Source: Verrucomicrobiaceae bacterium (GTDB lineage: Bacteria > Verrucomicrobiota > Verrucomicrobiia > Opitutales > Intestinicryptomonadaceae). Taken from it: a DNA stretch of 64,000 nt. Location: the NCBI GenBank assembly GCA_015061955.1, contig SUVO01000004.1, positions 1 through 64,000 of the forward strand, given 5' to 3'. The translations under genes were made by a program, and so were the position numbers. The notes under the pieces were generated by a model, which made no database searches, was not told the origin of the DNA, and was given only the letters and a program-made list of their open reading frames with translations. The first letter of the stretch is position 1. Each line of letters begins with the position of its first letter. This document shows positions 2,915-61,823 of the stretch, piece after piece.

Positions 2915-2915
2915 A

Positions 2916-4119: not shown

Positions 4120-4137
4120 TACTTCTAAAAATATAAG

Positions 4138-6377: not shown

Positions 6378-6419
6378 AAAATACTCGATGAAAAAGTATA
6401 CATCACAACTAGATTTTTT

Positions 6420-6845: not shown

Positions 6846-6852
6846 TAAGGAG
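6846..6852 (+). promoter_or_regulatory. Shine-Dalgarno of first methyltransferase
   Basis: TAAGGAG, 8 bp before the ATG at 6861. It fixes the start of the first methyltransferase. Confidence 0.65.
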
Positions 6853-6860
6853 TTTCTAAG

Positions 6861-7922: not shown

Positions 7923-7925
7923 TAT

Positions 7926-14571: not shown

Positions 14572-14618
14572 CAAAAAAATGGAGGAAATTTAACACCGGT
14601 TCGTATTAAATTTCCTCC
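14572..14618 (-). terminator. Terminator of tRNA-Ser
   Basis: A 13-bp perfect stem (GGAGGAAATTTAA and its complement, 12-nt loop) is followed on the minus strand by ATTTTTTT. It begins 2 bp after the tRNA 3' end. Confidence 0.85.
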
Positions 14619-14619
14619 A

Positions 14620-14708
14620 CGGAGAGAGAGGGATTCGAACCCCCGGTACCCTTTTGAGGCACACTCGATTTCCAATCGAGCACGTTCGACCAACTCCGTC
14701 ACCTCTCC
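14620..14708 (-). tRNA. tRNA-Ser(GGA)
   Basis: An 89-nt tRNA with a long variable arm. The acceptor stem GGAGAGG pairs with TCTCTCC (one G-U), the anticodon stem-loop is CTCGA-TTGGAAA-TCGAG with anticodon GGA, and the T loop is TTCGAAT. The discriminator is G, as in Ser tRNAs; CCA is not encoded. It is intact although the mobile element ends just downstream of it. Confidence 0.95.
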
Positions 14709-14833
14709 ATTAAACCTAATAATTCTTTAATAAGAAAAACTACCACAATTCTCCCTTTTCGTACAAAAATTGCAACAAAAAAAATGGAATCACGTTTATG
14801 ATGCCATTTCTTTCTTTAATATTATTAAAAATA

Positions 14834-39168: not shown

Positions 39169-40263
39169 TTACATCATTTGATGTAAAAAGTCTTTTATTC
39201 GGTTGCGAATTTCGATTTCTGACTTATCGACTGGGGTTACTATTTGGTAGTGTCGCCAATTATTATCGTTTGCTGACAAACGGAATTTTGTAAAGTACCC
39301 TGTTGAGATTTTGCCATTAGAAAAGAATGAGTAGCTAACAAAAAGTTGCTCGTTATTTTTGAAGAATATTTCATTTACTTGGATTTTCTTCCCGTTTACT
39401 TCAAGATAAATTTGTCTTGTAGATTTCACTAATGCGCCCGAGCTACGCAAGCATATCTCTACTGGATGTATGTCAGATGTATCGCCAACTTCGATTTCCA
39501 ATAACGACAAATTTGACGTTTTGTTATAGTATATTTTTCTAACAATCTTTTTTGCGTGTGGGAAAAATCTTTTATCATCAGCCGTCTGCACGTTCCTTGT
39601 TCCCAGCCAATCGCCCGATTTCATTTTTGAACTATCGATACAAAAACTATCACCATTTGGGATATCGCGTGTTCTCATTTCTGCAAATATTGATATCACG
39701 ACAACTACGACCACAAATATTATTGAACGCGCTTTGGGATATCGTTTTGTTTGCAAGGTTCTGACTATCCATACAATCATAAACAATATTCCAAAAAGTA
39801 TTTTATACAGGAAGAACGACATCAACCCACCTAAGCTTACATTAAAGCAATAGCTAATCCAAAACGACAAATTAGGAATCGTCAGAAGTACAAAAAGGAT
39901 TGTTGGTATTTGTGCTAAAACTACATTTCTGCCAAAACTCAATTCCAATGCAAGCAATAGAATTGATAACGCTAAAACTAAGCCTAAGGCATTTAACGAA
40001 AATCCTAGCAAAACAAAAGCCACTGAAAATATAATTAACAAGCTTACAACTATTTTTTTTCTAACGGCTTCTTTGGCTAGCTCTATTTTTACAACGCGTC
40101 TGACAAACTCGCAAACCAAGATAAACAATGGCATAAAAAGCCAAATATAAGCATCGTATTTTTCAAAAGGCGAACTTTGCCAAGATCCTATCAGATATGG
40201 CATTTTACAGGCAAGTGGAACTGCTCCGAAAAACAATAACAAACTTTTAAAATATTTCTTCAT
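39169..40263 (-). CDS. Membrane protein with C-terminal EpsI-like domain
   Basis: A 364-aa protein with about six to eight membrane helices (about 40-195) and a C-terminal periplasmic domain. That domain has GDWLGTRNVQ and HPVEICLRSSG, which fits the EpsI/DUF3485 pattern (HxPExCL) of exosortase-associated proteins. The exosortase catalytic ACSG motif is missing from its helices. The last gene of the exosortase operon, overlapping xrt by 4 bp. Usually EpsI follows exosortase as a separate protein or a fusion; here it is joined to its own membrane domain. Confidence 0.7.
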   Translation of the reverse strand: MKKYFKSLLLFFGAVPLACKMPYLIGSWQSSPFEKYDAYIWLFMPLFILVCEFVRRVVKIELAKEAVRKKIVVSLLIIFSVAFVLLGFSLNALGLVLALSILLLALELSFGRNVVLAQIPTILFVLLTIPNLSFWISYCFNVSLGGLMSFFLYKILFGILFMIVWIVRTLQTKRYPKARSIIFVVVVVVISIFAEMRTRDIPNGDSFCIDSSKMKSGDWLGTRNVQTADDKRFFPHAKKIVRKIYYNKTSNLSLLEIEVGDTSDIHPVEICLRSSGALVKSTRQIYLEVNGKKIQVNEIFFKNNEQLFVSYSFFSNGKISTGYFTKFRLSANDNNWRHYQIVTPVDKSEIEIRNRIKDFLHQMM

Positions 40264-41087
40264 TGCTTTGTAGAGTCTATACCAATTTTATTGAAAAATA
40301 TTCCAATGCACACATACACAAGCATTGTAGCAACAATACTAGAAATTCCAAATATCAGATGTGGCGTACCTGTCAGAAATGAATCGCCCCAATTATGCGT
40401 GCAGATAATCGTAAGCACAACTCTTACGGCGTTGAAGAAAATGAACAAAGGCACTATCAACGCAAAATACAAACCTTTAACCAATTTATCTTGAAAGAAC
40501 ATTGTAGAGGCTATCCAACCGAGCAAAATTAATGTCCAGATATGTTCAATTCCACTACATGCTGTTGTGATGATTATTTCTTTGCCATCAACAAATATAG
40601 ACGTTCCAGCAACTGAAACATCGTAACCTATGCAACTCAAAAAAATATTTACAATTTTTGTTTCAAGTATTCGCATAGGATAGCTAATAAACAAATGGAT
40701 TTGCACATAATTAGGAATTACAAACGCCCAAATTACAAAAGGAATAATTGTCAATAACGCGACTCTAAACCCACCAAAGAACAATGCCATAGCTATACTT
40801 ATCAGCAAAATAGCAACATTCCTGCACTGGAAATATGCCATCACTGCCGATATTGCAAGAACTATATATGCAAAAACTTCTTGCACTTGTTTGCGACGAA
40901 TGGAATTTAAAATATCTTTGAAATTGCACAACACCAAAACTGCGCCCAACGCCCACATTGAAAACGCAGAGTCATCGCCTAATACCTTCAATGTAAAAAC
41001 TAACGAATACAACGCCACGCAAACTATTAAAACTAATAGCATATTCCATACATTATTAACTGTTTTATTTTGCACGTTAATTTGCAT
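40260..41087 (-). CDS. Exosortase/archaeosortase family transpeptidase
   Basis: An integral membrane protease-transpeptidase that cuts C-terminal sorting tags and links proteins to the cell surface. The family's three catalytic residues are visible: Cys177 in TACSGIEH, Arg222 in FNAVRVV, and His243 in GTPHLIFG. 275 aa with about eight membrane helices. The motif reads ACSGIE; many exosortases have ACSGLR or ACSGIR. In operon with a TPR protein, two tagged substrates and an EpsI-like protein, which makes this the dedicated sorting system. It begins 11 bp inside the end of the TPR gene. Confidence 0.9.
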   Translation of the reverse strand: MQINVQNKTVNNVWNMLLVLIVCVALYSLVFTLKVLGDDSAFSMWALGAVLVLCNFKDILNSIRRKQVQEVFAYIVLAISAVMAYFQCRNVAILLISIAMALFFGGFRVALLTIIPFVIWAFVIPNYVQIHLFISYPMRILETKIVNIFLSCIGYDVSVAGTSIFVDGKEIIITTACSGIEHIWTLILLGWIASTMFFQDKLVKGLYFALIVPLFIFFNAVRVVLTIICTHNWGDSFLTGTPHLIFGISSIVATMLVYVCIGIFFNKIGIDSTKQ

Positions 41088-43410
41088 TTTGTGGTTTTGA
41101 AGGCGTCTGTAATGCTTTTATTTGGTCTTCAATTTCTTTATTTTCTGGCACAAATTTCAATACCTTACGCAAGACAAAAAGCTTACGTTCTTTAGTGGTA
41201 TTTGCTTGTTTAGAAATTCCTATTAAAGCTTTTACTAAGTTGTTTTTTATACTTTCAGACGGATGCTTTTGATAGCCCCTTTCAAGAAATACCGAAGCGT
41301 TTTCAAAAAGTTCATTTTCTAAATAAATTTCACCCATATTTAAATCGGCAACAAAATTTTCTGGAGCTAAGTTTGTTGCTTTTCGAGCATAATTCATAGC
41401 CTCGGCAGTTTCACCTATTTGCTGACAAACCTTCGATAACGCCACAAACGCCATAGCATTCGATGGATTTTCAGAAACTGTGTTTTGTAATATTTTCAGC
41501 GCCTCATTTACTTGCGACTTATCGCCTTTACTCAAATACGAAGCTAATACTAAATTTATATCAACCGAATTTTTGTTTTTTGCCAAGTTTTTCAGCAATG
41601 CAACCGATGTTTGTTTTTCGCCTAATTTGTGATATGCACTTGCTATTTCAAAATAGAAACCTGTTTCTGGACTAATATTGGTTGCTTTTTTCAATAACTT
41701 AATTTGCTCTTTGGCATCGTTGTTGACCTTTGCATACTCTGATTTCAACAATAACGCCAACAACTGATTATCTTTATTTTTTATGCGTTCGATATCCGAA
41801 ATGATTGCGAAGAACGAATCGAAAAGCTTGTTGCTTACAAGGAAATTGCCAGCTTCGCAAGCATTTGAAATATTTTCGGGCTTTAATTTTACTGCCGATA
41901 TATAAAACTTTTCTGCTTCTTTTATATTGTTGAGTTTAACATTTGCACGTGCCGAAAATATGTGTGCCAAAACATCGTTAGGTGCAACTTTCAATCTATT
42001 AGATGTTAATTTTAAGACATCGGCAAAATTACCAATTTGCATTGTAGATGCACACGTAATTGCAAAAGTTGCTTCTGAATAACCCAATTTTTGCAACAAA
42101 AGACGTGCCGATTTTAAGGTTTGATAATAATCTTTTTTTGCAAAAGATTTGTGCATTAACAAAAGATTTGCAAATGGATTTTCTGGCGAAAGTTTTAAAA
42201 GACTATTCAACAAAATTACATCGTCTCTATTCTGATTCAATGCCTCTGAAAAAATCTTAATTACATTTAAGATTTCCCAACTTGGAATTTGCTCTGGATT
42301 TTTCACAAGATTTTGAGCAATTATTGAGATTGTTTCCCAGTTGCGAAGTTCATAAGCACATTTAAGCTCTAAAATTTTACCATACACAATTTGCCCGAAC
42401 ACACCAGCCATCGACAATCGTTCGCGTGCTTTTTTATAATCGTTGTCTATGAAAAATTCGAGAGCTTCCATATAGTAAAGAAGTTCCAACGATATCTTAT
42501 CATTGGCTTCAAACAATTTTTTAACTTCTGCAATTGTCTGCTTGTCATTTATCGAACACGCCAATTCAGCACTACGAACCAATGGTGCAATTTGATAACG
42601 ACGCAATTTTGCCAATTCAAAATATTTTTTAGAGGCTGTATGTCTGTCTTCAAGTTCTATTGCAATCGACGCCTCAATTAAAAGCTTGTCGGCAAGGATA
42701 ATTTTATTTTGAGCTTTTATTTGCGAAACCAATTTTTGAGCCGTTGTTGAATCGTTGTCAAACAACCGAACCATAGAAATACAAATTAAAGCATTGTCTT
42801 TTTCGGTATCTGTTTTTGCAGAAGAAAGAGCTTTTTTAAATATAGCTTCTGTTGCACTATAACGGTTTGGCGATAATATTGAAACCCCTCTTACCAATTC
42901 TTTATAAAACGGATTTTTTATAAGCTTTTCTACCACCGATAATTGATTGCGTTTGTTTGAACGAATATAACTTTTTGCGATGGCAAAAAGCTCCTCATCG
43001 CCAAGGAACGACTTGTCAGCCAACGTTTCAAAACGCAACTCTAACGTTTCGTTCGTGCCAGATATAATCATTGCTCTGAAATAATTGAGCTTTGCCTGCG
43101 TATCTGGTGGATTTAAATTAGATACCATCATCCAAAAATACGCAGCATCTTTATAATTCTGGCGTTCTTGCGCAAGATTAGCTAAGGCGCGATACGCTTC
43201 TTCGCAAGATGTATCATTGGCGATGATTGAAAAATAAATATCGTAAGCTTTATTTTTGTTGCCTAATTCTAATTCTTGCTTCGCTTGAACAAGTTTATCG
43301 GAAGTTTCGTCATAAGCAAACGAAAAATAGCCCAAAAGGGCTATTACACTCAGTAAAAAAAGAGATAATCCAAAAATGATGATTTTTTGAAATCTTGCGT
43401 AATTTTTCAC
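41077..43410 (-). CDS. TPR-repeat protein of the exosortase system
   Basis: A 777-aa protein with an N-terminal membrane anchor (about 10-32) and many TPR-like helix pairs over its whole length (for example GNKNKAYDIYFSIIAND and PSNAMAFVALSKVCQQIG). It resembles the TPR proteins (PrsT-like) that accompany PEP-CTERM/exosortase systems. It lies between the two substrate genes and the exosortase gene: 5 bp from substrate 2 and overlapping the exosortase by 11 bp. Probably a periplasmic scaffold. Start ATG at 43410. Confidence 0.8.
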   Translation of the reverse strand: MKNYARFQKIIIFGLSLFLLSVIALLGYFSFAYDETSDKLVQAKQELELGNKNKAYDIYFSIIANDTSCEEAYRALANLAQERQNYKDAAYFWMMVSNLNPPDTQAKLNYFRAMIISGTNETLELRFETLADKSFLGDEELFAIAKSYIRSNKRNQLSVVEKLIKNPFYKELVRGVSILSPNRYSATEAIFKKALSSAKTDTEKDNALICISMVRLFDNDSTTAQKLVSQIKAQNKIILADKLLIEASIAIELEDRHTASKKYFELAKLRRYQIAPLVRSAELACSINDKQTIAEVKKLFEANDKISLELLYYMEALEFFIDNDYKKARERLSMAGVFGQIVYGKILELKCAYELRNWETISIIAQNLVKNPEQIPSWEILNVIKIFSEALNQNRDDVILLNSLLKLSPENPFANLLLMHKSFAKKDYYQTLKSARLLLQKLGYSEATFAITCASTMQIGNFADVLKLTSNRLKVAPNDVLAHIFSARANVKLNNIKEAEKFYISAVKLKPENISNACEAGNFLVSNKLFDSFFAIISDIERIKNKDNQLLALLLKSEYAKVNNDAKEQIKLLKKATNISPETGFYFEIASAYHKLGEKQTSVALLKNLAKNKNSVDINLVLASYLSKGDKSQVNEALKILQNTVSENPSNAMAFVALSKVCQQIGETAEAMNYARKATNLAPENFVADLNMGEIYLENELFENASVFLERGYQKHPSESIKNNLVKALIGISKQANTTKERKLFVLRKVLKFVPENKEIEDQIKALQTPSKPQNAN

Positions 43411-43415
43411 GATAC

Positions 43416-43901
43416 CTACGCTTTATTTGATTTCTTGCGAGAAAAGAGATATCCGCCACCAATGCAGAATGCTCCAAAAACTGCTGTGAATAAAACTGCT
43501 GGCAAAGGTTGTCCTGATGGTGCAATTTTATTTGTTCCAACTGTAAATGAGAATGGCATTGTAAAGCCGTAGTCGTCGCTATTTATGTTGTAAACACCTG
43601 CTTGCGAGGTTTCCTCTGCATAGTAATACAACAACCCTTTTTTCGCAAAACGGACAGTATCGCCATCTTTAAAATTTAAAGCCTGATTTATATTACTTTT
43701 ATCAATCTTATAAAACTTCGGATCATCATTTACAAAGTATCCGAACTTATGCAAATACAACGAAGAATCATCTGGCACAACGTAAATAGTTGTATCACCA
43801 GTTATCTTGAACGAACCGTTATTAAAAGTCCATCCAGCATGCAAAGGCGAAGCCAACAATGAAAAGCTAACAACAATAAATATACTAATTAATTTTTTCA
43901 T
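43416..43901 (-). CDS. Small secreted protein with QPLPA-CTERM tag (substrate 2)
   Basis: A 161-aa precursor: signal peptide about 1-22 (SPLHA), a mature domain of about 105 residues, then a tripartite C-terminal tag from about residue 129: SGQPLPA, a hydrophobic helix (with FTAVFG) and basic RKKSNKA. The mature part shares YFVNDDPKFYKI and ALNFKDGDTV with its neighbour. Family unknown. The tag resembles the VPLPA-CTERM type of exosortase substrate. Directly upstream of the TPR and exosortase genes. Confidence 0.8.
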   Translation of the reverse strand: MKKLISIFIVVSFSLLASPLHAGWTFNNGSFKITGDTTIYVVPDDSSLYLHKFGYFVNDDPKFYKIDKSNINQALNFKDGDTVRFAKKGLLYYYAEETSQAGVYNINSDDYGFTMPFSFTVGTNKIAPSGQPLPAVLFTAVFGAFCIGGGYLFSRKKSNKA

Positions 43902-43902
43902 T

Positions 43903-44385
43903 TTACTTTTTTATTTTTCCACGAAGAAAAAACAACGCTATCACACCAAAGATTGCTGTAAATATTATTGCTGGTAAAGGTTGACCTGAAACTTTGTAAG
44001 GCGTTGCTAAAAATTTTATATTGCCATTTCCTTCTCCACCAATTTTGTAGATATTATTTGTTGGATCGTCGTTATCTGCTTGCCAAAGATTTGTTTTGTG
44101 TGTAGCATTTTCATTATGCTTACGCACAATAAAAACTTCGTCGCCACTTTTAAAGTTAAGAGCTTTGTTTAAATCGGCTTCCGATATTTCGTAGAAAGTA
44201 GGGTCGTCATTTACATAATACCCCAACCCATCAGCATCAAAATCATCAGTTGTTGGCGATATATACAACGAACCATCGCCATCAAACTTAAAAGAGTGCG
44301 AGCCTCTATCAAAAGTAAACGATGCAAATGATGTTGTTACAAACATCATTAACAAAAATACAGACTTGATTAATATACTCTTCAT
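43903..44385 (-). CDS. Small secreted protein with QPLPA-CTERM tag (substrate 1)
   Basis: A 160-aa precursor (start ATG 44385; a longer frame to 44436 lacks a signal peptide at its N-terminus). Signal peptide about 1-21 (TTSFA), mature domain with YYVNDDPTFYEI and LNFKSGDEVF, then SGQPLPA, a helix (FTAIFG) and basic RGKIKK. It is a paralogue of substrate 2 (gap 1 bp), diverged outside the shared segments. First gene of the exosortase operon. Confidence 0.8.
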   Translation of the reverse strand: MKSILIKSVFLLMMFVTTSFASFTFDRGSHSFKFDGDGSLYISPTTDDFDADGLGYYVNDDPTFYEISEADLNKALNFKSGDEVFIVRKHNENATHKTNLWQADNDDPTNNIYKIGGEGNGNIKFLATPYKVSGQPLPAIIFTAIFGVIALFFLRGKIKK

Positions 44386-44446: not shown

Positions 44447-47122
44447 ATGAAAAAAACGCAGTCGAAAATTTTTATTTGTCTGATGACAACATTATTTGTT
44501 GTTGCTTCGGCAGTTTTTTGTTGCGATACATTTGGTATTCGTTCTGCTACAATATCTGCTTTAAAATACAAACTTAACATTTTTCATACCGACAAAAATG
44601 TTGATGAAGAAATTGCAGGTAATGTTCGCGTTGAAATTTTAGACAATCGCAACATCTGCGTTATAGGCACATATTCTGAATTTTTACAAAACAGATTTGA
44701 AGTAGAATGCAAAGACTTTCTAAAAGGTATTGATAGCCCTATTGCAAATCTCAAAGATTGGACTCGTAATGTTTTTTACAACATTATGGGTGCAGATATT
44801 ATTTTGAAGTATCGCCCAAAGATTGCTAACGCATATCAAAATTACAAAGCCTTTAAAGTTTCGGGAGGTATGAAGGTTAAAAATGCTGGTTATTGGATTA
44901 ATCCAATCGGACAAGCCGATTTCCCTGACTTTAAGAATGGAAGAACAAAACTTACACGAAATGCCGAGGTTGCACATTACGCATTTTTGGAATTCGAAAA
45001 GCCGATGAAAGAAGGGCAAACATACACACTCAAAACTCCGTTGGGCGAAATTGTAAATTTTCAGTTTTCACAAAACACGCAAAATAAAATAATCAAACTA
45101 AATCAGCTTGGCTATTGTCCAAACGCCAGAAAAAAATACGCATACATTGGTGCGTGGCGTGGAACATTAGGCGCTTTGAATTTAGATTTCACAAACAAGC
45201 CTTTTGAAATTATCAACACATTGAATGGTTCTGTTGCCTACAAAGGCGTGCTTGAAAAACGACAACCTGATCCGACCTACAAAACAGGCACTCAATTTAC
45301 TGGCGAGCAAACCTATCAAGCCGATTTTTCGCCTTTTTCTACAATTGGCAAATACAAGTTACGTATAGAAGGACTTGGCGAAAGTTTGCCTTTTGAAATT
45401 TCAAACAACGCTATTGGCGAGGCTTTCTATATTCATTCAAAGGGGTTATATCACAAGCGTTGCGGGATTGCCAAAGAAAAACCATTTACAAACTGGACTT
45501 CGGGCGATTGTCATAAGACTATCTACAAATCAAATTTTCCACCAAACAACAGGCACTACAAAACAAGTAAAAATAAAAGAGTTTTCGGTTTTTTTGACTC
45601 GAATGCAAAACCAATCGAAGTTAAACATTTCACACTGATTTCACTCAATGCAAAAACCGATACTCCTATAAACATTTGTGGTGGTTGGCACGATGCAGCC
45701 GATTATGATAGACGACCTTACCATTATGACGTCGTTTGCGACTTGCTTGCATCATACATTTATCGCCCTCAAAATTTCACTGACAATCAATTAAACATTC
45801 CAGAATCCAACAACAACATTCCAGACATTTTAGACGAAGCCATCTGGGGAATGAACGTGTGGTTGAATCTTCAAAACGCAAATGGCTCGGTCGGAGGATG
45901 GATTGAAACCGATTCACATCCTAAGGAATACAATCCGAACAAGGATACTCAACCATATTTTCTGTCGGCATCTACGCGCGAAAGTACAATGCAATATTGT
46001 GCGCACGCAAGTATGCTTGCCTTGGCATTAAAAAAAGCAAATCACACAGAACTATCGCAAAAATGGATAATATCGGCAATAAAAGCATACGAATGGGCAA
46101 TCAAGCCCGAAAATAGATTTTCAGCACAATATGTTTATCCGATAAACAACAACGACAGAAGTTCTCCTCTTCAAAAAATTACATACAAAGAAGCCCCCGA
46201 AATTCCATCTGAGCTTTATTTTAAATCGGCGTTCAATTTGTATTTGTTAACTTCCGATAACCGATATTTGAACGATTGCCAAAAGCTAAAATCAAAAATG
46301 TCGCAAAATTTTGTAGAGACAAGTTGGAAGATAAATCCATTCTTATTTTGCGAGTTTTTGAAATACGGCAAAGATATAATTTTTTTGAAAGACGTCTATG
46401 CCGATTTAAAGAAGAAAGCTTTGCAAAATGCCGATATGCGTTTAGATTGGCTTGAGAATGCGTATCCATATCGCATAGCGTGGTATCCAAGCAATAATGG
46501 GTTTGTTGCACATATGTCGTGGGGCAACTATCATCCATTCAGAAACGCAAAATATTTTGTAAACGCATTTGAACTTACTGGCGATAGAAAATATCGCGAT
46601 GCTGTTTATCTTTGCAACGATTTCCACAATGGTGCAAATCCAACAGGGCAAACAATGACATCTGGTTTAGGAAAAATTTATCCTGTAAAATTTCTCGATT
46701 TACCTTCGTATTCCGATGGAATTTCCGAATACGTCTTAGGTATTACGCCTTACAGAAATACTTTTGGCTTAAATCGAGAAGCTTTGAGATTAGGCTATGC
46801 GTTAATTTATCCTCCAATAAAGAGAAGGAATTTTAATCCTCAACCAACAATGTTGTTGCCAAAATCAACAATCGGCAAATACAAAAATTTGGAAGAATTT
46901 TCAAAAAAGGTTGCCCAACTTCTGCCTATTTGGCGAAGATTTACAAACGTTGAAGCATACTCGGTTGCCGTCAGCGAATATACAATTTCAGAAACAATAT
47001 CGCCAGCAGTTGCTGTTTGTGGTTGGCTACTAGACGAGCAGTGGAAACCTTCCGAAGAAATAAAAAACAAGTACCCTGCCCTAAATCATAGAAAACTTGA
47101 AGGCTACGCACCATTGCCGTAA
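44447..47122 (+). CDS. Glycoside hydrolase family 9 enzyme, secreted
   Basis: A secreted endoglucanase-like enzyme of 891 aa. Seen: hydrophobic N-terminus (about 8-26), an Ig-like CelD_N domain (about 215-325; LNQLGYCPNARKKYAYIG), then the GH9 barrel: GGWHDAADYD with the catalytic Asp pair (Asp416, Asp419), and the C-terminal catalytic Glu844 in VSEYTI, followed by CGWLLDEQW. Substrate is a beta-glucan or related polymer; it may trim the locally made polysaccharide. An N-terminal stretch of about 180 residues before CelD_N is unassigned. No tag of the QPLPA type. Transcribed away from the exosortase operon and converging on the polysaccharide operon (gap 1 bp). Confidence 0.85.
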   Translation: MKKTQSKIFICLMTTLFVVASAVFCCDTFGIRSATISALKYKLNIFHTDKNVDEEIAGNVRVEILDNRNICVIGTYSEFLQNRFEVECKDFLKGIDSPIANLKDWTRNVFYNIMGADIILKYRPKIANAYQNYKAFKVSGGMKVKNAGYWINPIGQADFPDFKNGRTKLTRNAEVAHYAFLEFEKPMKEGQTYTLKTPLGEIVNFQFSQNTQNKIIKLNQLGYCPNARKKYAYIGAWRGTLGALNLDFTNKPFEIINTLNGSVAYKGVLEKRQPDPTYKTGTQFTGEQTYQADFSPFSTIGKYKLRIEGLGESLPFEISNNAIGEAFYIHSKGLYHKRCGIAKEKPFTNWTSGDCHKTIYKSNFPPNNRHYKTSKNKRVFGFFDSNAKPIEVKHFTLISLNAKTDTPINICGGWHDAADYDRRPYHYDVVCDLLASYIYRPQNFTDNQLNIPESNNNIPDILDEAIWGMNVWLNLQNANGSVGGWIETDSHPKEYNPNKDTQPYFLSASTRESTMQYCAHASMLALALKKANHTELSQKWIISAIKAYEWAIKPENRFSAQYVYPINNNDRSSPLQKITYKEAPEIPSELYFKSAFNLYLLTSDNRYLNDCQKLKSKMSQNFVETSWKINPFLFCEFLKYGKDIIFLKDVYADLKKKALQNADMRLDWLENAYPYRIAWYPSNNGFVAHMSWGNYHPFRNAKYFVNAFELTGDRKYRDAVYLCNDFHNGANPTGQTMTSGLGKIYPVKFLDLPSYSDGISEYVLGITPYRNTFGLNREALRLGYALIYPPIKRRNFNPQPTMLLPKSTIGKYKNLEEFSKKVAQLLPIWRRFTNVEAYSVAVSEYTISETISPAVAVCGWLLDEQWKPSEEIKNKYPALNHRKLEGYAPLP

Positions 47123-47123: not shown

Positions 47124-48953
47124 TTACTTTCCACTCTTGCCAAAAAATTTGTAAAGCAAAACTCTAAAAACAAAGAGTGGATTTCCTATTACATATCTAC
47201 CAAAAAGCCTACAAGGCTCTTGCAATAAGCGTCCAAACCATTCAAGTCCAAGTTTTCTTAAAATAGGATTTCGTTTCAAGTTGCCAGAATAAACATCAAC
47301 TAATCCACCAACAGCAAGTGCAAGTTTACAATCTAATTTGTCGAGATTTTCCAAAAGCCATTTTTCCTGAATAACTGCTCCAAAGCCGACGAATAAAATG
47401 TCTGGTTTCTGAATGTTGACTTCTGCAACGACTGCATTGTGGTCTTCAAAATATCCAGAACGCGTGCCAACAATTTTCAAATTTGGATATTTCATTTTCA
47501 GATTTTCTGCCGCACGCGCTGCAACATTCTCGCGTCCACCAAGGAAATACATTGTAAGATTTTTTTCGCTTGCAAGCTTGCACAAATACGGAAGTAAATC
47601 AGTACCATTTAGATTATCGCAAAATTTGTATCGCATAATTTTGCACGCCAAGCGAACCCCACTACCATCAGGTAGAACAAAATCAAAACTATTCAAACGC
47701 TTGCGTTGTTCAGTACTTTCATAGGCACAATTTAGATAGTGTGTATTTATAAACGCAACCGATGTTTTTTTATTTTGCAAAATTCTATCTGTGAAGATTT
47801 CAATTATGTCAGCAAATCTTCCATTGAAAAATTCTACATCAAATATCTTTAACTTGCTTATCTTTTGAAATTCTTTTCTGCAAATATCAGAAAGAGTTTT
47901 TGCGTGTGTCTGCCATGAAAAAATCGATGAGCGTTCTTTGGCTTTTGCAATTAACTCAGTTCTTAACTGTTCATTTTCTATAAGAGTTTTTATTGAGTTT
48001 GAAATTTCAGAAACTTCACTCGGATTAAATTGTAATACAGTATCTCCACCAACTTCGGCAAGCGCAGAGACATTTGAACACGCACACACTACGCCATTTG
48101 ACATTGCTTCTACAAGCCCCAAGCCAAACCCTTCCGCAAAAGAAGGAAATACAAAAACGCTTGCATTTTTATACAAACTTGAAAGCTCGGCATTGCTTAC
48201 AAAACCCGAAAACACAATATTTTCAGCCGATATACTTTCTGTTGCCAATTTTCTTACAACGTCGGCATTATCCCAATCGGCACCAACAAAAACGAGTTTG
48301 TGATTTTTGCGAATATCCTCTGGCAACGCTTCAAACGCTTTAATCAAATTTGCATGATTTTTAGCTGGATGTTCAATTCGCGAAACGTAGAGAATATATT
48401 TCTGCAAATTCAAACGTTCAAGAATTGCATTATCAGGAGCAGGAAGTTTCGATGTCCCATTGTAATTTAGCTCAATAGAATTCTCATCAAGCTTCCAATA
48501 TTTTGCAATGTCGGTTCGTGTTGTTTTACTAATTGCAACAAGTTTACTGAATTTTTTTGCTAAGATAGGCTGCACCTTGAATAGTTGAAACATTCGCAAC
48601 CAACCATATTTGTTTGCAACCCGATATTGCGATAAATCGTGAATTACGCCAACTGTTGAAGTTTTGCCAAAAGGCACAAAACGTCTGTTGCCAGCAAGCA
48701 CAAGCACGCAATCAAATTTACGCGCGATGAAAGGCAATATAAAAATACTCCATAAATACCCTGCAAGCGATTTTGAAAAAATCTTTGGAACAAGAATTTT
48801 TTTGAAGTTAGAAAAATCATTTACGGCATCGTTTTCAAGAACAACTGTAATGTCTTCTTCAACAAGTTTCAATTCGGCAAGGACATTCATCATATAATTT
48901 GAGATACCCGATTTCCCCGAGTCGTAACCTAAACAACTAACTAAAAGTTTCAT
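47124..48953 (-). CDS. Fusion: GT4 glycosyltransferase + WecG/TagA glycosyltransferase
   Basis: A 609-aa two-domain enzyme. Residues about 1-370 are a GT4 (GT-B) transferase (YVSRIEHPAKNHANLIKAF; FPSFAEGFGLGLVEAMSNG). From about 375 it is a WecG/TagA/CpsF family GT26 domain (INTHYLNCAYEST; LPDGSGVRLA; FVGFGAVIQEKWL). Normally these are separate proteins. The GT26 part transfers an N-acetylmannosamine-like sugar to a lipid-linked sugar. The last gene of the polysaccharide operon, with a 4-bp overlap with the preceding GT gene. Confidence 0.85.
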   Translation of the reverse strand: MKLLVSCLGYDSGKSGISNYMMNVLAELKLVEEDITVVLENDAVNDFSNFKKILVPKIFSKSLAGYLWSIFILPFIARKFDCVLVLAGNRRFVPFGKTSTVGVIHDLSQYRVANKYGWLRMFQLFKVQPILAKKFSKLVAISKTTRTDIAKYWKLDENSIELNYNGTSKLPAPDNAILERLNLQKYILYVSRIEHPAKNHANLIKAFEALPEDIRKNHKLVFVGADWDNADVVRKLATESISAENIVFSGFVSNAELSSLYKNASVFVFPSFAEGFGLGLVEAMSNGVVCACSNVSALAEVGGDTVLQFNPSEVSEISNSIKTLIENEQLRTELIAKAKERSSIFSWQTHAKTLSDICRKEFQKISKLKIFDVEFFNGRFADIIEIFTDRILQNKKTSVAFINTHYLNCAYESTEQRKRLNSFDFVLPDGSGVRLACKIMRYKFCDNLNGTDLLPYLCKLASEKNLTMYFLGGRENVAARAAENLKMKYPNLKIVGTRSGYFEDHNAVVAEVNIQKPDILFVGFGAVIQEKWLLENLDKLDCKLALAVGGLVDVYSGNLKRNPILRKLGLEWFGRLLQEPCRLFGRYVIGNPLFVFRVLLYKFFGKSGK

Positions 48954-50095
48954 TTTATTTTCAAAAAGCTTTCTAAAAATTTTTCTTTTGTGAAATGTTT
49001 TTCTACAAATTCTTTTGCGTAATTACCAAGCTGATTTCGTTTTTGAACGTCTGTGGCAAGAGTATCTAATGCTTTTGCAAAAGCCTTTGTATCGCGCTCT
49101 GGCACAAGAATTCCATTTTTATCATTTTCTAACCACTGCCGAACTCCACCAACATTAAAAGCAACAACAGGTTTTGAATTTGCCATAGCCTCAATACCAA
49201 CAAGACCAAAGGGTTCTTGCCACATCGACGGAAAAGCAACAACGTCTGCGTTTTTATAAAACGTTTGTGGAGCATCAACAAAACCATGAAATTTGATTTT
49301 GTTTTCGAGATTCATTTGTATTGTTAAATCTTTGTAAAATGGGGTTCTTGCACCTTCGCCCAAAACATCTAATACAAAATCTTCTTTCATTTTTGAAAGC
49401 GATTCAAATAAAAGATGAAGTCCCTTACTTGCAACATGCTGACCTGCAAAAAGAATTTTTAATTTGCCTGACAAAACTTGATTTTGCGTTTCTTGAACAT
49501 CTACAAATGGCGAAATCAACGATATTTTATTTTTATCAATCCCATTTTTCACAAGCTCACCACGCATAAAATCCGACAATACAACGTAGCTTGAAAATTT
49601 TGTCATTACATCAAAAAGCTTTGGCATTGTTGAAAAATTGCGTTTAAGTGCGTTTACAAATCCGTTTACAAAGTGCCGCGGCGGAACAGCTATTGAACAC
49701 AGTCCACAACGAACTTTGTCATATTTTAATGAACAATTTTTTCGTTTGTATGGAAAATATTTGTAGCCCTTCGGACATACGTAAGTGTGGTCGTGAACAA
49801 AAAGTGTTGGCGAAAAATTTTCTAACGCGAATTTCAAGAACGTAAAATCTTCTGTTCTGTGCATCGTTTTTATCTGATAATGCAACGATGTTAATTTATC
49901 AGATTTTTTTACATCAACACAATTTTCAAATACCGACTGAAATTTTTCAAAAGCATTTGTCTTTGTTTTGTAAATCATATCACAAGCAAAGCCATTAGCT
50001 TTTAACAACTCAGCAACAGAAAAAATATATTTTTCTGTGCCTCCAATGAAACCTGCAAATTCAGATATAAACAAAATGCGTTTTGAGTTGCTCAT
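48950..50095 (-). CDS. GT4 glycosyltransferase
   Basis: A 381-aa GT-B fold transferase. Seen: FAGFIGGTEKYIFSVAELL at the N-terminus, LFAGQHVASKGLHLLFESL, and the C-terminal WQEPFGLVGIEAMANSKPVVAF pattern with its EX7E motif. Start taken at the ATG at 50095, which overlaps the previous stop (ATGA); the longer frame to 50164 runs into the neighbour. Contains a Cys-rich segment (CPKGYKYFPYKRKNCSLKYDKVRCGLC) around 125-150 that may bind zinc. Confidence 0.85.
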   Translation of the reverse strand: MSNSKRILFISEFAGFIGGTEKYIFSVAELLKANGFACDMIYKTKTNAFEKFQSVFENCVDVKKSDKLTSLHYQIKTMHRTEDFTFLKFALENFSPTLFVHDHTYVCPKGYKYFPYKRKNCSLKYDKVRCGLCSIAVPPRHFVNGFVNALKRNFSTMPKLFDVMTKFSSYVVLSDFMRGELVKNGIDKNKISLISPFVDVQETQNQVLSGKLKILFAGQHVASKGLHLLFESLSKMKEDFVLDVLGEGARTPFYKDLTIQMNLENKIKFHGFVDAPQTFYKNADVVAFPSMWQEPFGLVGIEAMANSKPVVAFNVGGVRQWLENDKNGILVPERDTKAFAKALDTLATDVQKRNQLGNYAKEFVEKHFTKEKFLESFLKIK

Positions 50096-51309
50096 TTTTT
50101 CAAGCTCCTGTAAAAGTCTAATGTCTGCTTGGCGACAGCTTGCCATGAATACTTTTCGGAACACAATTTATACGCGTTTTGGCAAATTTCATCTTTACTA
50201 CTTTGTGCAGCATAAAACGCTTCGACAGCCGAAGAAGTATTGTTAACTTGAAATAAAAATCCAGTTTTGCCGTTTTCAATCAATCGCCCCAAGCCTCCTA
50301 CATTTGAAGCTATAACTGGAATTCCCGATGCCCAAGCTTCCAACGCAACAATTCCAAAAGGCTCATGAATACTTGCAAGCGCAAACACGTCTGCCGATTT
50401 ATAGGCCGACAACAACAAATCGCTTTCTGGCAAAAGACCATTACAAATTGTTAAACGTCCCGACAAATTTAAAGTTTTAGCAAGCTCATTTATTTTCTGC
50501 AAATAAGAGTTATCGGTTATGAAGCCGACCAACGCCAAGTGTGTATCCTCGCCACGTTTCAACAACGCATCTAACAGTTCCAAAAGTGCAAGTTGATTTT
50601 TTTGTGGATCAATTCTCGATACACACAAAATCAATTTTCTATCTTTTGGGATTGAAAATTCTTTGCGAAAATCTGAAACAGGAATCTTTGAAAAGCGCCC
50701 AACATCTACGCCATTGGGAATATGCGCAATCTTTTTATCTGGATAAATTGAACGCATTTTTTCGTATTCATTTTCGCCAACACAAATAATTCCATCGGCT
50801 TCGATAACTGCATCGTTTGGCATTGAACAAAATTTTTCAAGAAGTTTACCATAGCCAATGCGATATTTTAGAGGCTCTTTCATCATATCAACTTCGCTTT
50901 GAGGGACGTCTAAATACCCACCATGAAAAGTTAAAACTGATGGCACACCTAACTTGCGTGCTGCAACAACAGCTGTTTTACCGACTCTACCAAGTGTATG
51001 CGAATGAACAATATCAAATCCACCATTTATAATATACTTGTATAACTGAAACGAAAACGGATTTCCTCCTTTTTTATCTAACGCAAAAATTCTTTTTTTA
51101 TCTAAAAACAAATGTGGATAAAAATAATCAAAGCGTTTTATTTGAAGTTTACTTTTTTCTTCACAAACACACTTACACAATGCAGTTGTTGCAAGAATTT
51201 CAGCATTTTCACCTTCTTGTAAAAAGTTTTTCGACAAGCTCCACACAGCACTTTCTGTTCCACCCCACTCCTCGAAAACAAAGCGTCGGATAACATTAGC
51301 TATTTTCAT
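50092..51309 (-). CDS. GT4 glycosyltransferase
   Basis: A 405-aa GT-B transferase. Seen: VFEEWGGTESAVWSLSKNF, HSHTLGRVGKTAVVAARKLG, CVSRIDPQKNQLALLELL and HEPFGIVALEAWASGIPVIAS. Likely retains an alpha-type linkage. Overlaps both neighbours by 4 bp. Substrate unknown. Confidence 0.88.
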   Translation of the reverse strand: MKIANVIRRFVFEEWGGTESAVWSLSKNFLQEGENAEILATTALCKCVCEEKSKLQIKRFDYFYPHLFLDKKRIFALDKKGGNPFSFQLYKYIINGGFDIVHSHTLGRVGKTAVVAARKLGVPSVLTFHGGYLDVPQSEVDMMKEPLKYRIGYGKLLEKFCSMPNDAVIEADGIICVGENEYEKMRSIYPDKKIAHIPNGVDVGRFSKIPVSDFRKEFSIPKDRKLILCVSRIDPQKNQLALLELLDALLKRGEDTHLALVGFITDNSYLQKINELAKTLNLSGRLTICNGLLPESDLLLSAYKSADVFALASIHEPFGIVALEAWASGIPVIASNVGGLGRLIENGKTGFLFQVNNTSSAVEAFYAAQSSKDEICQNAYKLCSEKYSWQAVAKQTLDFYRSLKK

Positions 51310-52127
51310 TTGCCATCCTTTCTGCCTTTATAATACGACATCTTTTGCAAAAATCTTACGCTGAATGAATGTGGAATTTCTGCAATTTTACCTGTTTTAA
51401 ACGCAAACAAAATATCGCGAAAAATATCAACTATCGCTCTGCGAATTGCATCTGAAAGAGTAAATTTGTTGCTACAAATTTTTTTATCGGCAACACCCTC
51501 GCCTGTAAAACGTCTAATAATAGATTGTTTGTCGTAATTATGCGAATGCTCAACAACGGCTTTGTTTGCGTAAATGATTTTGAAATTTTGTTCACTCGCT
51601 GTTTTTACAAGCATAACATCTTCTGAAAAATTTAAAGATTCATCAAAATGAATTTGCTCGAAAACCTTTGCTGATACAGCAGAACTTGCCATTGAAAAGA
51701 ACTCTGCCGATGATGGTTTACTTTTAGGAAACGCATGATTGTAATCAGAACAAACCCAAAGATGAGCGTCTTTTCTTGGAATTTGTCGGGCATAAACAAT
51801 GTCGGCTTCACCTTTTAAAATTGGCGAAATTAAGTTTTCAAGCCAAGTTTCATTTTGAGGAATTGCATCTAAATTATTAAAAACATAAATGTCGGCATTT
51901 GTTTTTGCTACTGCCAAGTTCAAAATTTTACCAGGCACATAAGCACCCTCTGCAACATTTACAATTTCAACGCCAAATTTTTCCAAAATTTTGCGAGTAC
52001 CATCTGTTGACGAATTATCAAAACAAAAAATCTTTTGGAACTCGAATCTTTGCGAATGCAATGCATCGAGCGTATGCTGGGCAAATGCGATGTCGTTGCG
52101 ACTTCTTACAACTATTGCAATTTTCAT
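51306..52127 (-). CDS. GT2 glycosyltransferase
   Basis: A 273-aa GT-A family 2 transferase. Seen: KIAIVVRSRNDIAFA at the N-terminus, FDNSSTDGT, and NLDAIPQNETWLENLI in the acceptor-binding region. A rhamnosyltransferase-like enzyme is possible. The start overlaps the flippase stop by 4 bp. Confidence 0.85.
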   Translation of the reverse strand: MKIAIVVRSRNDIAFAQHTLDALHSQRFEFQKIFCFDNSSTDGTRKILEKFGVEIVNVAEGAYVPGKILNLAVAKTNADIYVFNNLDAIPQNETWLENLISPILKGEADIVYARQIPRKDAHLWVCSDYNHAFPKSKPSSAEFFSMASSAVSAKVFEQIHFDESLNFSEDVMLVKTASEQNFKIIYANKAVVEHSHNYDKQSIIRRFTGEGVADKKICSNKFTLSDAIRRAIVDIFRDILFAFKTGKIAEIPHSFSVRFLQKMSYYKGRKDGK

Positions 52128-53662
52128 ACCGCAACCTTTCTGTTTACAAGTGCCTTAAACTTATTCGCAAAATATTGACGCTCTGATTTCGACAACACTA
52201 CAACCCAACTAATACCCAAATAAATAAGTCCCATACCGAGATATACAATACCCAACGCAAACAAAGAATGCATATTATCGCCCATAAAATTACGTATAAA
52301 ATAACCAATGCTACCAGCAATTAAAACTGCAAACGCTGGCGCTGCATATATTGAAAAGATATCTTTAAATGTTATTTTAAGCTTATAAACTGCAACTGGG
52401 AAAATGAAGAAAGCCGGAAATATAATGTTTGGTATTAATGCAGCCCACGCAATACCAATTGTCCCCATTACTTTACACAACCAAATACCTAAGCCTATTG
52501 TTGAAATAGCTTGCATAATAGAAATCATTGCAATGTATTTGTGCTTATTCGACACTTGTAAATATCGATACGGCACATTCCTAACTGCACAATACATAAA
52601 TTGTGAAATCAAAAATATTCGGCAAATTGAAATAACTTCCTCTGAACAAAAACCGAATAAAATCATTATGGTTTGAGGCGTTAGAATGTAAAAAAATGCA
52701 GTTGCACCAATCGAAACAAATGCACTAAAACGCAAACCATTTACCAGGATATTTTTCAGCCCAGAAATATCGTTTTTCTTCGCTAAGTTCGATGCCACAG
52801 GAATTACATTATCTTGAAATTGCGACGATAATGATTGCGACATTTCTGGCAAACGTGTACCAATCTGATACGCACTAACTGCTGGCAAGCCAAGAATTGA
52901 GCTAAGCACAAATCTGTCGGTTTTTGCAGTTATCAACATTGCCAAAGAATTCAAATACACGAACAAACTAAAATTCCAAATCTCTCCAAAAACTTTTAAA
53001 TCTGGACGAAGTATAAATTTAAACGTTGGAATTTTTTGCTTCACAACAACAACTAAAAATCCTGTAAACAATACGTTTATAACCGTTGAAAATACTACAA
53101 AAACAATAAATCTCGACTTACCTGCAATCAATCCGTAAATACCTATTATTTCGACAACTCGCAACAAAATCATCACAATGTTTTTTAAATAAATTAATCG
53201 CAAGCCTGTTAAAATATCCACAAAAGTTGAGAGTGGAAAAAGGATTGCCATACCTATACCGAATACAACTAATGCACATTTACAGTCGAACAACATTGTT
53301 GGGTTTGAAACGTTTGTCCATGTGTGCATATTTGCAATCCCAAGCCCTACAACACCTAAAATAATAGCCGAAACACCAAAATAAGCAAGCAACACAATTG
53401 AAATTATTTTGTTGTATTTTTCAGGCTCGGTTTCAAAGAGATGTTCGGCTGTAAATTTTTGGACAGTTGCCCCAAAACCAAAATTAAAAATTGCTACATA
53501 CGTGAAGAATGCCCACAGAATACTCCAAAAACCATAGTAATCTTCGCCTAATGCACGATACAAAAAACGTGTTATCAAGATTACATACAGGATGCGAATA
53601 GCAATCAGTCCGTAATTCGACAACGTGTTTATGGCAACAATTCTATTTAACGAGCGATCCAT
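52124..53662 (-). CDS. Wzx-type oligosaccharide flippase
   Basis: A 512-aa protein with about 12-14 membrane helices, of the MATE/Wzx flippase type (LIRFLYRALGEDYYGFWSIL-like N-terminal region, KAdrFVLSSILG). It moves lipid-linked repeat units across the inner membrane. Located within the glycosyltransferase operon; overlaps its neighbours by 4 and 20 bp. Confidence 0.85.
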   Translation of the reverse strand: MDRSLNRIVAINTLSNYGLIAIRILYVILITRFLYRALGEDYYGFWSILWAFFTYVAIFNFGFGATVQKFTAEHLFETEPEKYNKIISIVLLAYFGVSAIILGVVGLGIANMHTWTNVSNPTMLFDCKCALVVFGIGMAILFPLSTFVDILTGLRLIYLKNIVMILLRVVEIIGIYGLIAGKSRFIVFVVFSTVINVLFTGFLVVVVKQKIPTFKFILRPDLKVFGEIWNFSLFVYLNSLAMLITAKTDRFVLSSILGLPAVSAYQIGTRLPEMSQSLSSQFQDNVIPVASNLAKKNDISGLKNILVNGLRFSAFVSIGATAFFYILTPQTIMILFGFCSEEVISICRIFLISQFMYCAVRNVPYRYLQVSNKHKYIAMISIMQAISTIGLGIWLCKVMGTIGIAWAALIPNIIFPAFFIFPVAVYKLKITFKDIFSIYAAPAFAVLIAGSIGYFIRNFMGDNMHSLFALGIVYLGMGLIYLGISWVVVLSKSERQYFANKFKALVNRKVAV

Positions 53663-54824
53663 TTTTTAATTCTTCTATATCTGAGTTCATTAAAGCAAAG
53701 AAGTCTTTTACGTGTTTTGGTTCAAACTTTGGTTCAGCATTTGAAAGCATACATGCGTAAGAATCTTTTGCCGTTGGCATATATCCGTGCATTCCATTTA
53801 AGGCTTTTGAGCCTAAATCACATGGCGATATTTGAACACCTTCATCTGTAATAAAGATATCTTCACCATATTTATTATCTTCAAAATTTATTCCGTATTT
53901 TTGTTTTTCAGCGTCTGTCAAGAAGTGCCCCTTGTATGTCGACAACGCATCTTGAATTTTTGTTTTTACTGCTTGCGATTTTGTAGGATACCAAAAGCGT
54001 GCCATTGTAGAATCGAAGAACGCAACGTAATCGGTTCCAAATTTGAGATTCAAATTTTTCACAACGCTCATTAAATCGCAAATTTCAGATGTTGGAGTCA
54101 TTCCATGGTCGGAAATTATAGTAAAATTAAAATCTTTTCCAGTGTTTGTAAGAGTCTGCAAGATTGAATTAACTTTTTGCTCATATACCGACAATTTGTT
54201 TTCGACTGCTGAACTATCAAAAACGTTATCGTGCATAAAGGCATCAAAAGCTCCTGTATAGACAAACACGAAATCGGCATCATCTGCTATTGCTTGTTTT
54301 GCTAAGGCAACATTTTCGTCTTCCGATTTTCGCCAATCGGAGATATGAAATTTCAATCCCGACGCTTTCAGAATATCGTGAAGATTTTTTACTGGTAACA
54401 ATCCATCAGGCGCAAAAATATCGTTTTTTTCGCAATAGTCAAAAAACGGAAGCTTATTAAATGGCACTGAATAAAGACTGAAATATCCTGTGTATCCTAG
54501 CATTTTAGCTGTAAAGCGAGAGATTATTCTTCTAATTCGGCCTCTATTAAACAAGCATTTTGGGTGAACCCCTACTCCAAAAAAATATTTTAGATATTTA
54601 AAATTTTTAAAAGGCGATTCTTTTGCACTATAATAAAAAAATGAAAAATGTTTATGTTCTTGCGGATATTTTCCAGTTAAAATTGTAGGCACAGCTGCCG
54701 ATGAATAGCCAAACTGCATTTCTACTTTTTTACGATAACCCAAAGTATCTTTCAGAAAATTATATTTTGAAACAATCTCCCAACCAAGTGCATCTACAAA
54801 CATATAAACGTATGTTTTTTTCAT
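53643..54824 (-). CDS. Alkaline-phosphatase-superfamily hydrolase in the polysaccharide operon
   Basis: A 393-aa phosphodiesterase/pyrophosphatase-like protein (no signal peptide, so cytoplasmic). Metal-ligand segments: VDALGWE (N-terminus), GYSSAAVPTILTG with the presumed Ser/Thr nucleophile, VYTGAFDAFMHD, ISDHGMT and MHGYMP. Start at the ATG 54824, overlapping the stop of the polymerase gene by 4 bp. Its role may be removal or transfer of a phosphate-linked group such as phosphoglycerol, but the substrate is not evident. Confidence 0.75.
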   Translation of the reverse strand: MKKTYVYMFVDALGWEIVSKYNFLKDTLGYRKKVEMQFGYSSAAVPTILTGKYPQEHKHFSFFYYSAKESPFKNFKYLKYFFGVGVHPKCLFNRGRIRRIISRFTAKMLGYTGYFSLYSVPFNKLPFFDYCEKNDIFAPDGLLPVKNLHDILKASGLKFHISDWRKSEDENVALAKQAIADDADFVFVYTGAFDAFMHDNVFDSSAVENKLSVYEQKVNSILQTLTNTGKDFNFTIISDHGMTPTSEICDLMSVVKNLNLKFGTDYVAFFDSTMARFWYPTKSQAVKTKIQDALSTYKGHFLTDAEKQKYGINFEDNKYGEDIFITDEGVQISPCDLGSKALNGMHGYMPTAKDSYACMLSNAEPKFEPKHVKDFFALMNSDIEELKNGSLVK

Positions 54825-56149
54825 TTTGCCCTCTTTTCTTGTGAAATTCTTACGTTTGTCATGGTAGCAATTATTGCGAACATTATCATAATCTCGTATG
54901 AATTTGTTTGTTGTTTTAAAATCCACTCAAAACACGATTGTCCATAAACTGCGCTTAATGCCCCTAAAACGCCAATTGTCATAAAGAATCCATTTGCATC
55001 CCAATATGCTTTTATATTGCGTATGTTTTGGTAGTAATAATATCCGAACCACAATAGCAACGATACCAATCCAATCCAGCCACACTCTGCGGCAACAAGC
55101 AAATAGATAGTTTCAACAATACCACTTTTAAAATCTTCATACGGACGTTTTATACCAGTACCCTCCCAGTATCTGTATGGTGGATTTATTTTTAAGCCCC
55201 AATTGTTTAAACCAACGCCAAAGAATTTATCTTCTGCCATATTTACAGCTGCTTTTGCAAATGCTACACGACCTTGTGCCGATGTTTCTGGCGCATTTTC
55301 AAAACGATCGATAACCATAGGTGCGGCTCGCATCACTGCCACAACTGCACACACACCGATAAGCGCTAATATTTTTGCTTTTCGTGAATTCATCTTATTG
55401 CGTGCTGAGAACAAAATAACAATACCTAACGACAACGGTAAAAAAATGATTGCACCACGAGAAAGCGAAAGTATCACAACAAAAGATGAGCATAAAAATG
55501 CACTCACAAAAAAGTAAAAATTACGTTTTGTCATTTCTTTGTTAAGAATTAACGACAAAAATATTGGTGCCAACATATTTGAAAACATCGCTGTTGAATT
55601 GCGATGAATAAAGACCCCCGAAGGTTGATAAATTCCCCAAAGCAAGCGTTGCACAAGCATATGAAAAAACGTAAAGATTATAAAACCACCTAATGCATAC
55701 AAAATAACATCAAAGTTTTTTTCGCGAACAATGGCATTATAAACTGTAACAAAAAATATGTAGTGCAAAATCATCTGCATTACAACATAACCCGAATATA
55801 CTCGGTTTTCGGCGTTCACAATCGATATGCAACTGAAAATAAAATACAACAAATAAAATCGGCTTCCACGCGGGAACAACACAATATCTTTTGAATTTTT
55901 ACCAATCAGGAAAGCCCCAAGCAACGCCCACGCAATCATATCGGTTGCTAACACTTCATATCCTCGCACGGTACCTTTATAAAATTCATCGGTAAAAAAG
56001 TTTATCCCAGTTGAATACACAAATGGGATAAACAAAATCATCATAAAGTATGCAATTTTTTGCATACGCACATTGTCTTTAAGCATTACAATTGCGACAG
56101 GAACGCCGAATATTAGCATTGCAAAAAAGGCTATGTGTTTTAGCTCCAT
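54821..56149 (-). CDS. O-antigen ligase/polymerase-like membrane protein (Wzy/WaaL)
   Basis: A 442-aa protein with about 10-12 membrane helices and a large periplasmic loop around 275-345 (FFGVGLNNWGLKI..RYWEGTG), fitting the O-antigen ligase/polymerase superfamily (PF04932-like). In this locus, Wzy-type polymerisation is the more likely role because Wzx, Wza and Wzz are present. Start ATG at 56149. Confidence 0.8.
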   Translation of the reverse strand: MELKHIAFFAMLIFGVPVAIVMLKDNVRMQKIAYFMMILFIPFVYSTGINFFTDEFYKGTVRGYEVLATDMIAWALLGAFLIGKNSKDIVLFPRGSRFYLLYFIFSCISIVNAENRVYSGYVVMQMILHYIFFVTVYNAIVREKNFDVILYALGGFIIFTFFHMLVQRLLWGIYQPSGVFIHRNSTAMFSNMLAPIFLSLILNKEMTKRNFYFFVSAFLCSSFVVILSLSRGAIIFLPLSLGIVILFSARNKMNSRKAKILALIGVCAVVAVMRAAPMVIDRFENAPETSAQGRVAFAKAAVNMAEDKFFGVGLNNWGLKINPPYRYWEGTGIKRPYEDFKSGIVETIYLLVAAECGWIGLVSLLLWFGYYYYQNIRNIKAYWDANGFFMTIGVLGALSAVYGQSCFEWILKQQTNSYEIMIMFAIIATMTNVRISQEKRAK

Positions 56150-56163
56150 TTAACTAAGAACTC

Positions 56164-57237: not shown

Positions 57238-57238
57238 T

Positions 57239-61821: not shown

Positions 61822-61823
61822 AA

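Follow-up and report, generated by a model that had tools for sequence, protein, structure and literature searches.

The window analysed here, a 64,000-nucleotide stretch of a Verrucomicrobiaceae genome, encodes a five-gene cassette which very probably represents a separate exosortase subtype that recognises a tag of its own and forms, in this genome, a dedicated unit within an exopolysaccharide locus. This reading is based on the gene content, the catalytic residues, the separate lineage of the enzyme, the co-occurrence of tag and enzyme, the kept gene order and the exopolysaccharide neighbourhood. The exosortase lineage and its tag apparently form an unnamed subtype for which NCBIfam release 20 holds no model. 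A paper on either was not found by text searches of an open-access collection of papers, which does not disprove that one exists. The first-pass annotation had suggested an undescribed exosortase/tag subtype, and the suggestion is supported by the lack of any NCBIfam subtype or tag match, by the separate lineage, and by the co-occurrence of tag and enzyme in the class and the phylum.

Cassette layout and tagged substrates

All five genes proposed in the first-pass annotation were found on the minus strand (Table 1). Read from 44385 to 39169, they encode two paralogous secreted proteins of about 160 residues, a TPR protein, an exosortase and a DUF3485/EpsI-like membrane protein. The successive junctions measured +1, +5, -11 and -4 bases; the genes therefore overlap at two of the four junctions and nearly abut at the other two, so that their description as five overlapping genes holds for half of the junctions. 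The same five-gene cassette, with the tags SGQPLPA and SGSPLPP, was present in congener G004, where the flanking GH9 and WecG-GT4 genes were kept too.

Table 1. Features of the cassette and its neighbours in the window
Feature	Positions	Strand	Evidence
Substrate 1 (160 aa) with signal segment and beta-rich body, ending in SGQPLPA tag, C-terminal helix and basic tail	43903..44385	-	Translation, paralogue comparison, AlphaFold2 model
Sorting tag of substrate 1	43906..43992	-	Tag HMM A5, E 6.9e-16 (tag belongs to training set)
Substrate 2 (161 aa), tagged, paralogous to substrate 1	43416..43901	-	Translation, paralogue comparison
Sorting tag of substrate 2	43419..43520	-	Tag HMM A5, E 1.5e-15 (tag belongs to training set)
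777-aa TPR protein (start codon GTG; single hydrophobic segment, at the N-terminus), remote from PrsT	41077..43410	-	TIGR02917, TPR Pfam matches, hydropathy
Exosortase, 275 aa, Cys177/Arg222/His243	40260..41087	-	PF09721, TIGR04178, catalytic residues
Polytopic membrane protein with DUF3485/EpsI-like domain at C-terminus	39169..40263	-	PF11984 27.5 bits; hydropathy
GH9 glycosidase (CelD_N domain) next to the cassette and oriented divergently; also present in congener G004	44447..47122	+	
Neighbouring exopolysaccharide locus	47124..64000	-	WecG-GT4 fusion, further glycosyltransferases, flippase-like, Wzy_C, Poly_export/SLBB, pyruvyl transferase fusion, sugar transferase

The two substrates shared 34% identity (E 6e-25), and each had one N-terminal and one C-terminal hydrophobic segment by hydropathy. 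Both ended, as had been claimed, in SGQPLPA, a helix and a basic tail, the tail consisting of Lys/Arg. The AlphaFold2 model of substrate 1 (mean pLDDT 75.2, pTM 0.60) comprised a signal-like helix and a beta-rich body; residues 130-137 formed a linker modelled with low confidence, and residues 139-158 a C-terminal helix. The fold of the body is tentative, because the alignment used for the model mixes substrates without a detectable body relationship. Between the substrate bodies of the window and those of other genomes no relationship was detectable, and a shared function therefore rests on the tag, typically [ST]GQPLP[AG] with a helix and basic residues after it.

Elsewhere in the window, a complete-looking Gabija pair was matched by PADLOC models at 10578-14323 on the plus strand (GajA 953 bits, GajB 737 bits). 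At 6861-10376, two methyltransferases (MTase_II) were followed by two opposite-strand ORFs matching the C- and N-terminal halves of PDLC03402, a single type II restriction enzyme model; the enzyme is therefore made as two proteins, or its gene is split. Together with a relaxase-like ORF (1195-2589) and a recombinase-like ORF (4434-6377), both named by reading, and a tRNA-Ser(gga) at 14619-14709, these defence genes occupy positions 1-14709, which possibly represent an integrated element.

The enzyme and the tag compared with known families

The window exosortase (P0004) matched PF09721 at 92.1 bits (cut-off 25.7) and the general exosortase signature TIGR04178 at 42.8 bits (cut-off 23), the latter being the only exosortase model of NCBIfam release 20 that it passed. 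The residues Cys177, Arg222 and His243 had been numbered correctly in the first-pass annotation, and were invariant in all 25 aligned exosortases of the lineage; we take the conserved Cys, Arg and His to be the catalytic residues of the exosortase superfamily. None of the five lineage enzymes scanned singly reached the cut-off (200-400 bits) of a named NCBIfam exosortase subtype, the best subtype scores being 52-78 bits overall and 52 to 78 bits in the four relatives. For the window enzyme, the best subtype was exosortase V (XrtV, NF035943; 61 bits, cut-off 313), with 55.6 bits to XrtA (TIGR03109, cut-off 208) and 41.3 bits to XrtD (TIGR04152, cut-off 400). Exosortase V was also the best subtype for P0014 and P0015 (77.8 and 70.4 bits), again below its cut-off, in a comparison of enzyme scores alone.

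When 56 exosortases were placed in one tree, the 25 lineage members lay beyond a long branch (length 1.73, support 93/97), with 31 others, including the exosortase P0011 of the same genome, on the opposite side. These 31 remained after P0011 and 47 loci had been filtered by length and score. The tree covers the lineage and the 31 other exosortases of the class, and the separation from the named subtypes is by HMM score. The third exosortase-family protein of the genome, P0012 (L034:7705-8583, G000:C8), was lost at the filter; it reads ATECNGF where others read TACSG and, by reading, had no exopolysaccharide genes alongside within the 16 kb fetched.

A search for the DNA pattern of QPLPA in the 2.43-Mb genome gave three matches, in the two cassette proteins and antisense to another gene, and the reversed control pattern gave one. 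The pair of tags is accordingly no accident of sequence. In this genome-wide search, a check proposed by the first-pass annotation, only the two cassette proteins carried QPLPA. The PEP-CTERM model TIGR02595 was matched above its cut-off by 45 proteins of the genome and at E<=10 by 47, with tails of VPEPSTY or close to it at the best 12 loci; both cassette substrates were absent from the 47. As QPLPA was confined to the two cassette proteins beside 45 PEP-CTERM proteins, two kinds of tag are therefore present in one cell. Among 19 tagged proteins of the lineage, none passed the cut-off of any NCBIfam sorting-tag model, so that the comparison of enzyme and tag with the known subfamilies, also proposed earlier, left no NCBIfam subtype or tag model at its cut-off. 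The nearest tag models, both in relatives, were VPXXXP-CTERM (19.4 vs 30 bits) and LPXTG (14.4 vs 15.9). Three of the 19 tags touched TIGR02595 when isolated (best E 0.013), and no full-length protein passed it.

The first-pass annotation had placed the tag closer to the VPLPA-CTERM group than to the classic PEP-CTERM tag. The PLP core is indeed common to both, but the likeness ends there: the VPLPA-CTERM model TIGR03370 had no match at E<=10 in the whole genome, in a search which works, because 7 of 14 control genomes gave sub-cut-off matches. This bears on the alternative that the cassette belongs to the VPLPA-CTERM/XrtD (or XrtV) system as a divergent branch and is not a separate subtype. 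The shared PLPA core would fit such a branch, as would the enzyme profiles, since the XrtD and XrtV models matched all 25 lineage members at E<=0.001 with the best E-values of any subtype model (the lowest to any family being 2.9e-22, XrtD). An EpsI-like domain accompanies the exosortase in both systems, and the C-terminal part of the XrtD model matched the DUF3485 partner of genome G100 at 26.6 bits. The alternative is nevertheless unlikely, since the five singly scanned members scored 37-78 bits against cut-offs of 400 (XrtD) and 313 (XrtV), and since the genome had no VPLPA-CTERM match. In addition, the XrtD model (486 positions) spans the EpsI-like part, which in the cassette is a separate polytopic protein with its own gene and membrane segments, though G603 has it fused to the enzyme.

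Tag, enzyme and partner genes in related genomes

Thirteen congeners were searched, and a close exosortase was found in one, G004. Across 384 genomes of the class, the lineage was present in five (the window genome G000, G004, G188, G224 and G100) at 87-512 bits, the next score being 51. Strong tag matches (E<=2.3e-9) fell in exactly the same five genomes, four of which had supplied training tags; G100 had not. A tag match in a sixth class genome (G247, E 9.9e-4) proved internal to a 636-aa protein. In G188 and G224, the same order of TPR, exosortase and DUF3485 genes was observed, with an adjoining tagged protein (VGSPLPA and TGQPLPG, respectively) that had a different body. The three genes were also present in G100, with no tag within the 17 kb read around them; two tagged proteins, visibly like the G224 substrate, were detected on other contigs of G100 by a tag HMM of six tags, none of them from G100.

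The genome of the window held three PF09721 exosortases in its 2.43 Mb (35 contigs): P0011 on contig C14, the window enzyme, and P0012 on contig C8. P0011, the presumed enzyme of the 45 PEP-CTERM proteins, might then serve the QPLPA proteins as well, with the local enzyme doing something else; the two further exosortases, the large PEP-CTERM set, and the helix and basic tail common to both kinds of tag would all allow for this. It is very improbable, however, given that the tag adjoined a window-type enzyme in many loci and that strong tag matches were found neither in the 8 congeners searched of the 12 without the lineage (best E 0.0015) nor in the remaining 379 genomes of the class, many of them with other exosortases. 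A distinct subtype, with the tag recognised by the local enzyme, is the reading preferred here.

The phylum was sampled by a draw of 387 genomes, searched with a five-sequence exosortase profile; genomes with a score of at least 110 bits, above a gap down to 80 bits, were counted as having the enzyme, and there were 50 of these. With a broad tag HMM built from 19 tags, for which 12 training genomes lay within the draw, the tag was found at E<=1e-4 in 43 of the 50 enzyme genomes and in 2 of the 337 others. Without the 12 training genomes, the counts were 31 of 38 vs 2 of 337 (Fisher p 3e-36, a value computed as if the genomes were independent, although they are not). Most positives came from three families (f95, f100, f111), and the co-occurrence counts genomes, not independent events. 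When the matches in all 45 tag-positive genomes were read, 44 had a GxPLP tag before a helix. In the class, no strong tag match lay in a genome without the exosortase; of the two phylum genomes with a tag match and no enzyme, G645 proved to have no tag, while G615, an assembly of 610 contigs, had real tags and no exosortase at E<=0.01. The pairing of substrates and sortase proposed in the first-pass annotation is thus borne out by the coincidence of five and five genomes in the class and by the 43 of 50 vs 2 of 337 in the phylum.

Seven of the 50 enzyme genomes had no tag at E<=1e-4. Three of them (G617, G560, G643) had a local GQPAPS variant and G476 had GGPLPG, both noticed only on inspecting the failures. 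No tag was found in the stretches fetched from G573, G641 and G494, those of G573 and G641 ending inside the TPR gene. The GQPAPS variant at L207, L208 and L209 had few basic residues at the very end and lay upstream of a TPR protein of about 1010 aa and the exosortase.

Of the 46 enzyme genomes outside the window's class, 20 had their loci fetched, mostly the best-scoring. The DUF3485 gene was adjacent to the enzyme in all 20 and the TPR gene in 16, and the order of TPR, exosortase and DUF3485 genes is found again in both classes. An HMM trained on the window's class alone detected tagged proteins within 8 of the 20 stretches, directly upstream of the TPR gene in 7; the 11 tagged proteins concerned carried [ST]GQPLPG, SGKPLPG or GGQPLPG (E 1.8e-7 to 0.0072, the listed noise starting at 0.021). 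In genus g224 of family f100, each genome had 2-6 tag matches, scattered and away from the enzyme, with an often divergent core (GAPLP, GSPLP, GEPLP), and at three such loci the TPR gene was not adjacent to the enzyme. A dedicated or one-to-one system is therefore not universal in the lineage. At L187, L190, L191, L193, L217 and L219 (g224 genomes G492, G536, G490, G496 and G631), a GQPLPG tag and helix were followed by about 50 residues ending in HTISPGPDLFC[QL]RE, which is unusual as the tail of a sorting tag. The cassette had also been called self-contained. The five-gene unit is present, but the term is too strong, because tagged proteins lie elsewhere in some relatives (G100, G492, G536) and the cassette borders the exopolysaccharide locus.

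The EpsI-like membrane protein claimed for the cassette was confirmed as polytopic, and passed PF11984 (DUF3485) narrowly (27.5 vs 26.1 bits; four relatives, 15.0 to 30.1); the EpsI model TIGR02914 itself was matched at 12.3 bits, below its cut-off of 42.8. His266, Pro267 and Cys271 were invariant in all 19 aligned DUF3485 partners. The gene adjoined the enzyme in 24 of 24 loci (G004, G188, G224, G100 and the 20 phylum loci) and in six of seven further loci, the enzyme of the seventh lying near a contig end. In G603 (L214:2974-4950), a natural fusion of 658 aa comprised the exosortase at residues 20-277 and the DUF3485 partner at 330-654. This adjacency and fusion make the DUF3485 protein a likely physical partner of the exosortase.

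Exopolysaccharide neighbourhood and proposed function

The cassette sits at the end of the exopolysaccharide locus. Relatives of genes of this locus were found at 13 of the 24 cassette loci, in both classes (tblastn, E<=1e-6 within the fetched stretch), including kept runs of BacTransf-NTase-Wza-Wzy and WecG-GT4-GT4-GT2. Relatives of the window RecJ, used as a control, were found at none of the 24. Such exopolysaccharide relatives were absent at 11 of the 24 loci, three of these on stretches under 8 kb. GH9-like matches were observed at four more cassette loci besides G004 (L138, L148, L152, L153); since such genes recur near other cassettes, this hints that the GH9 glycosidase is a polymer-trimming enzyme of the same locus.

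The position beside an exopolysaccharide locus would also suit an enzyme that is a polysaccharide-biosynthesis factor, with the small proteins simply anchored by their C-terminus in the inner membrane and left unprocessed, as cleavage of the tag by the enzyme is itself predicted from sequence. This seems quite improbable, because a short GxPLP motif was kept while the bodies diverged beyond detection, and a plain anchor needs no such motif; the co-occurrence moreover reaches tagged proteins far from the enzyme, in G100.

Recognition of the tag by its own exosortase remains the preferred reading. In the model of Haft et al. 2006 for EpsH, as given in passages of PMC1569441, export is directed by a signal peptide, and the C-terminal helix then anchors the protein so that its motif lies on the periplasmic side, where it is attacked by the cysteine of EpsH. 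The cassette unites the parts of this model in one operon. Like the PEP-CTERM/EpsH (XrtA) system described in those passages, it has a motif-helix-basic C-terminus, a signal peptide, a polytopic Cys-triad enzyme, exopolysaccharide neighbours, and EpsI and TPR companions. It differs in its tag core, which is GQPLP and not PEP, in having two adjacent substrates and not tens, and in an enzyme and a TPR protein that score below the XrtA and PrsT cut-offs (TPR protein vs TIGR02917, 86.8 bits, cut-off 312.2). Dedicated GlyGly-CTERM/rhombosortase pairs, according to passages of PMC3237569, likewise have enzyme and target genes side by side when targets are few, whereas their enzyme (a rhomboid-type serine protease) and motif are unrelated.

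We infer here cleavage and its site, the acceptor, where the protein ends up, and what the DUF3485 and TPR partners do. The small tagged proteins would be exported by Sec, and each would be anchored in the inner membrane by its C-terminal helix, with the GQPLPA motif at the periplasmic face. Cys177 of the exosortase, aided by Arg222 and His243, would attack at or near this motif, and the enzyme would then free the tagged protein or pass it on to an acceptor. The exosortase would have the DUF3485 membrane protein as its physical partner and the TPR protein as a membrane-anchored adaptor, and the freed small protein may join the polysaccharide made by the neighbouring genes. A more specific version, put forward tentatively and rather doubtful at present, is that the exosortase is a transpeptidase-like enzyme which links one or two dedicated small proteins via the GQPLP site to the polysaccharide made by the locus, or to its lipid-linked unit, the DUF3485 protein presenting the acceptor. 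If this were true, a polymer and the protein attached to it would be encoded by one and the same locus.

The attachment target of exosortases is still open, partly because typical genomes have tens of substrates. Passages of PMC12188702 likewise discuss the target of exosortase substrates as unresolved. The tag and the enzyme model are new means for annotating dozens of genomes of the phylum. In the cassette, one enzyme, two small substrates, two partners and the polysaccharide genes are found together, and the acceptor and the cleavage site may therefore be readable from one small protein.
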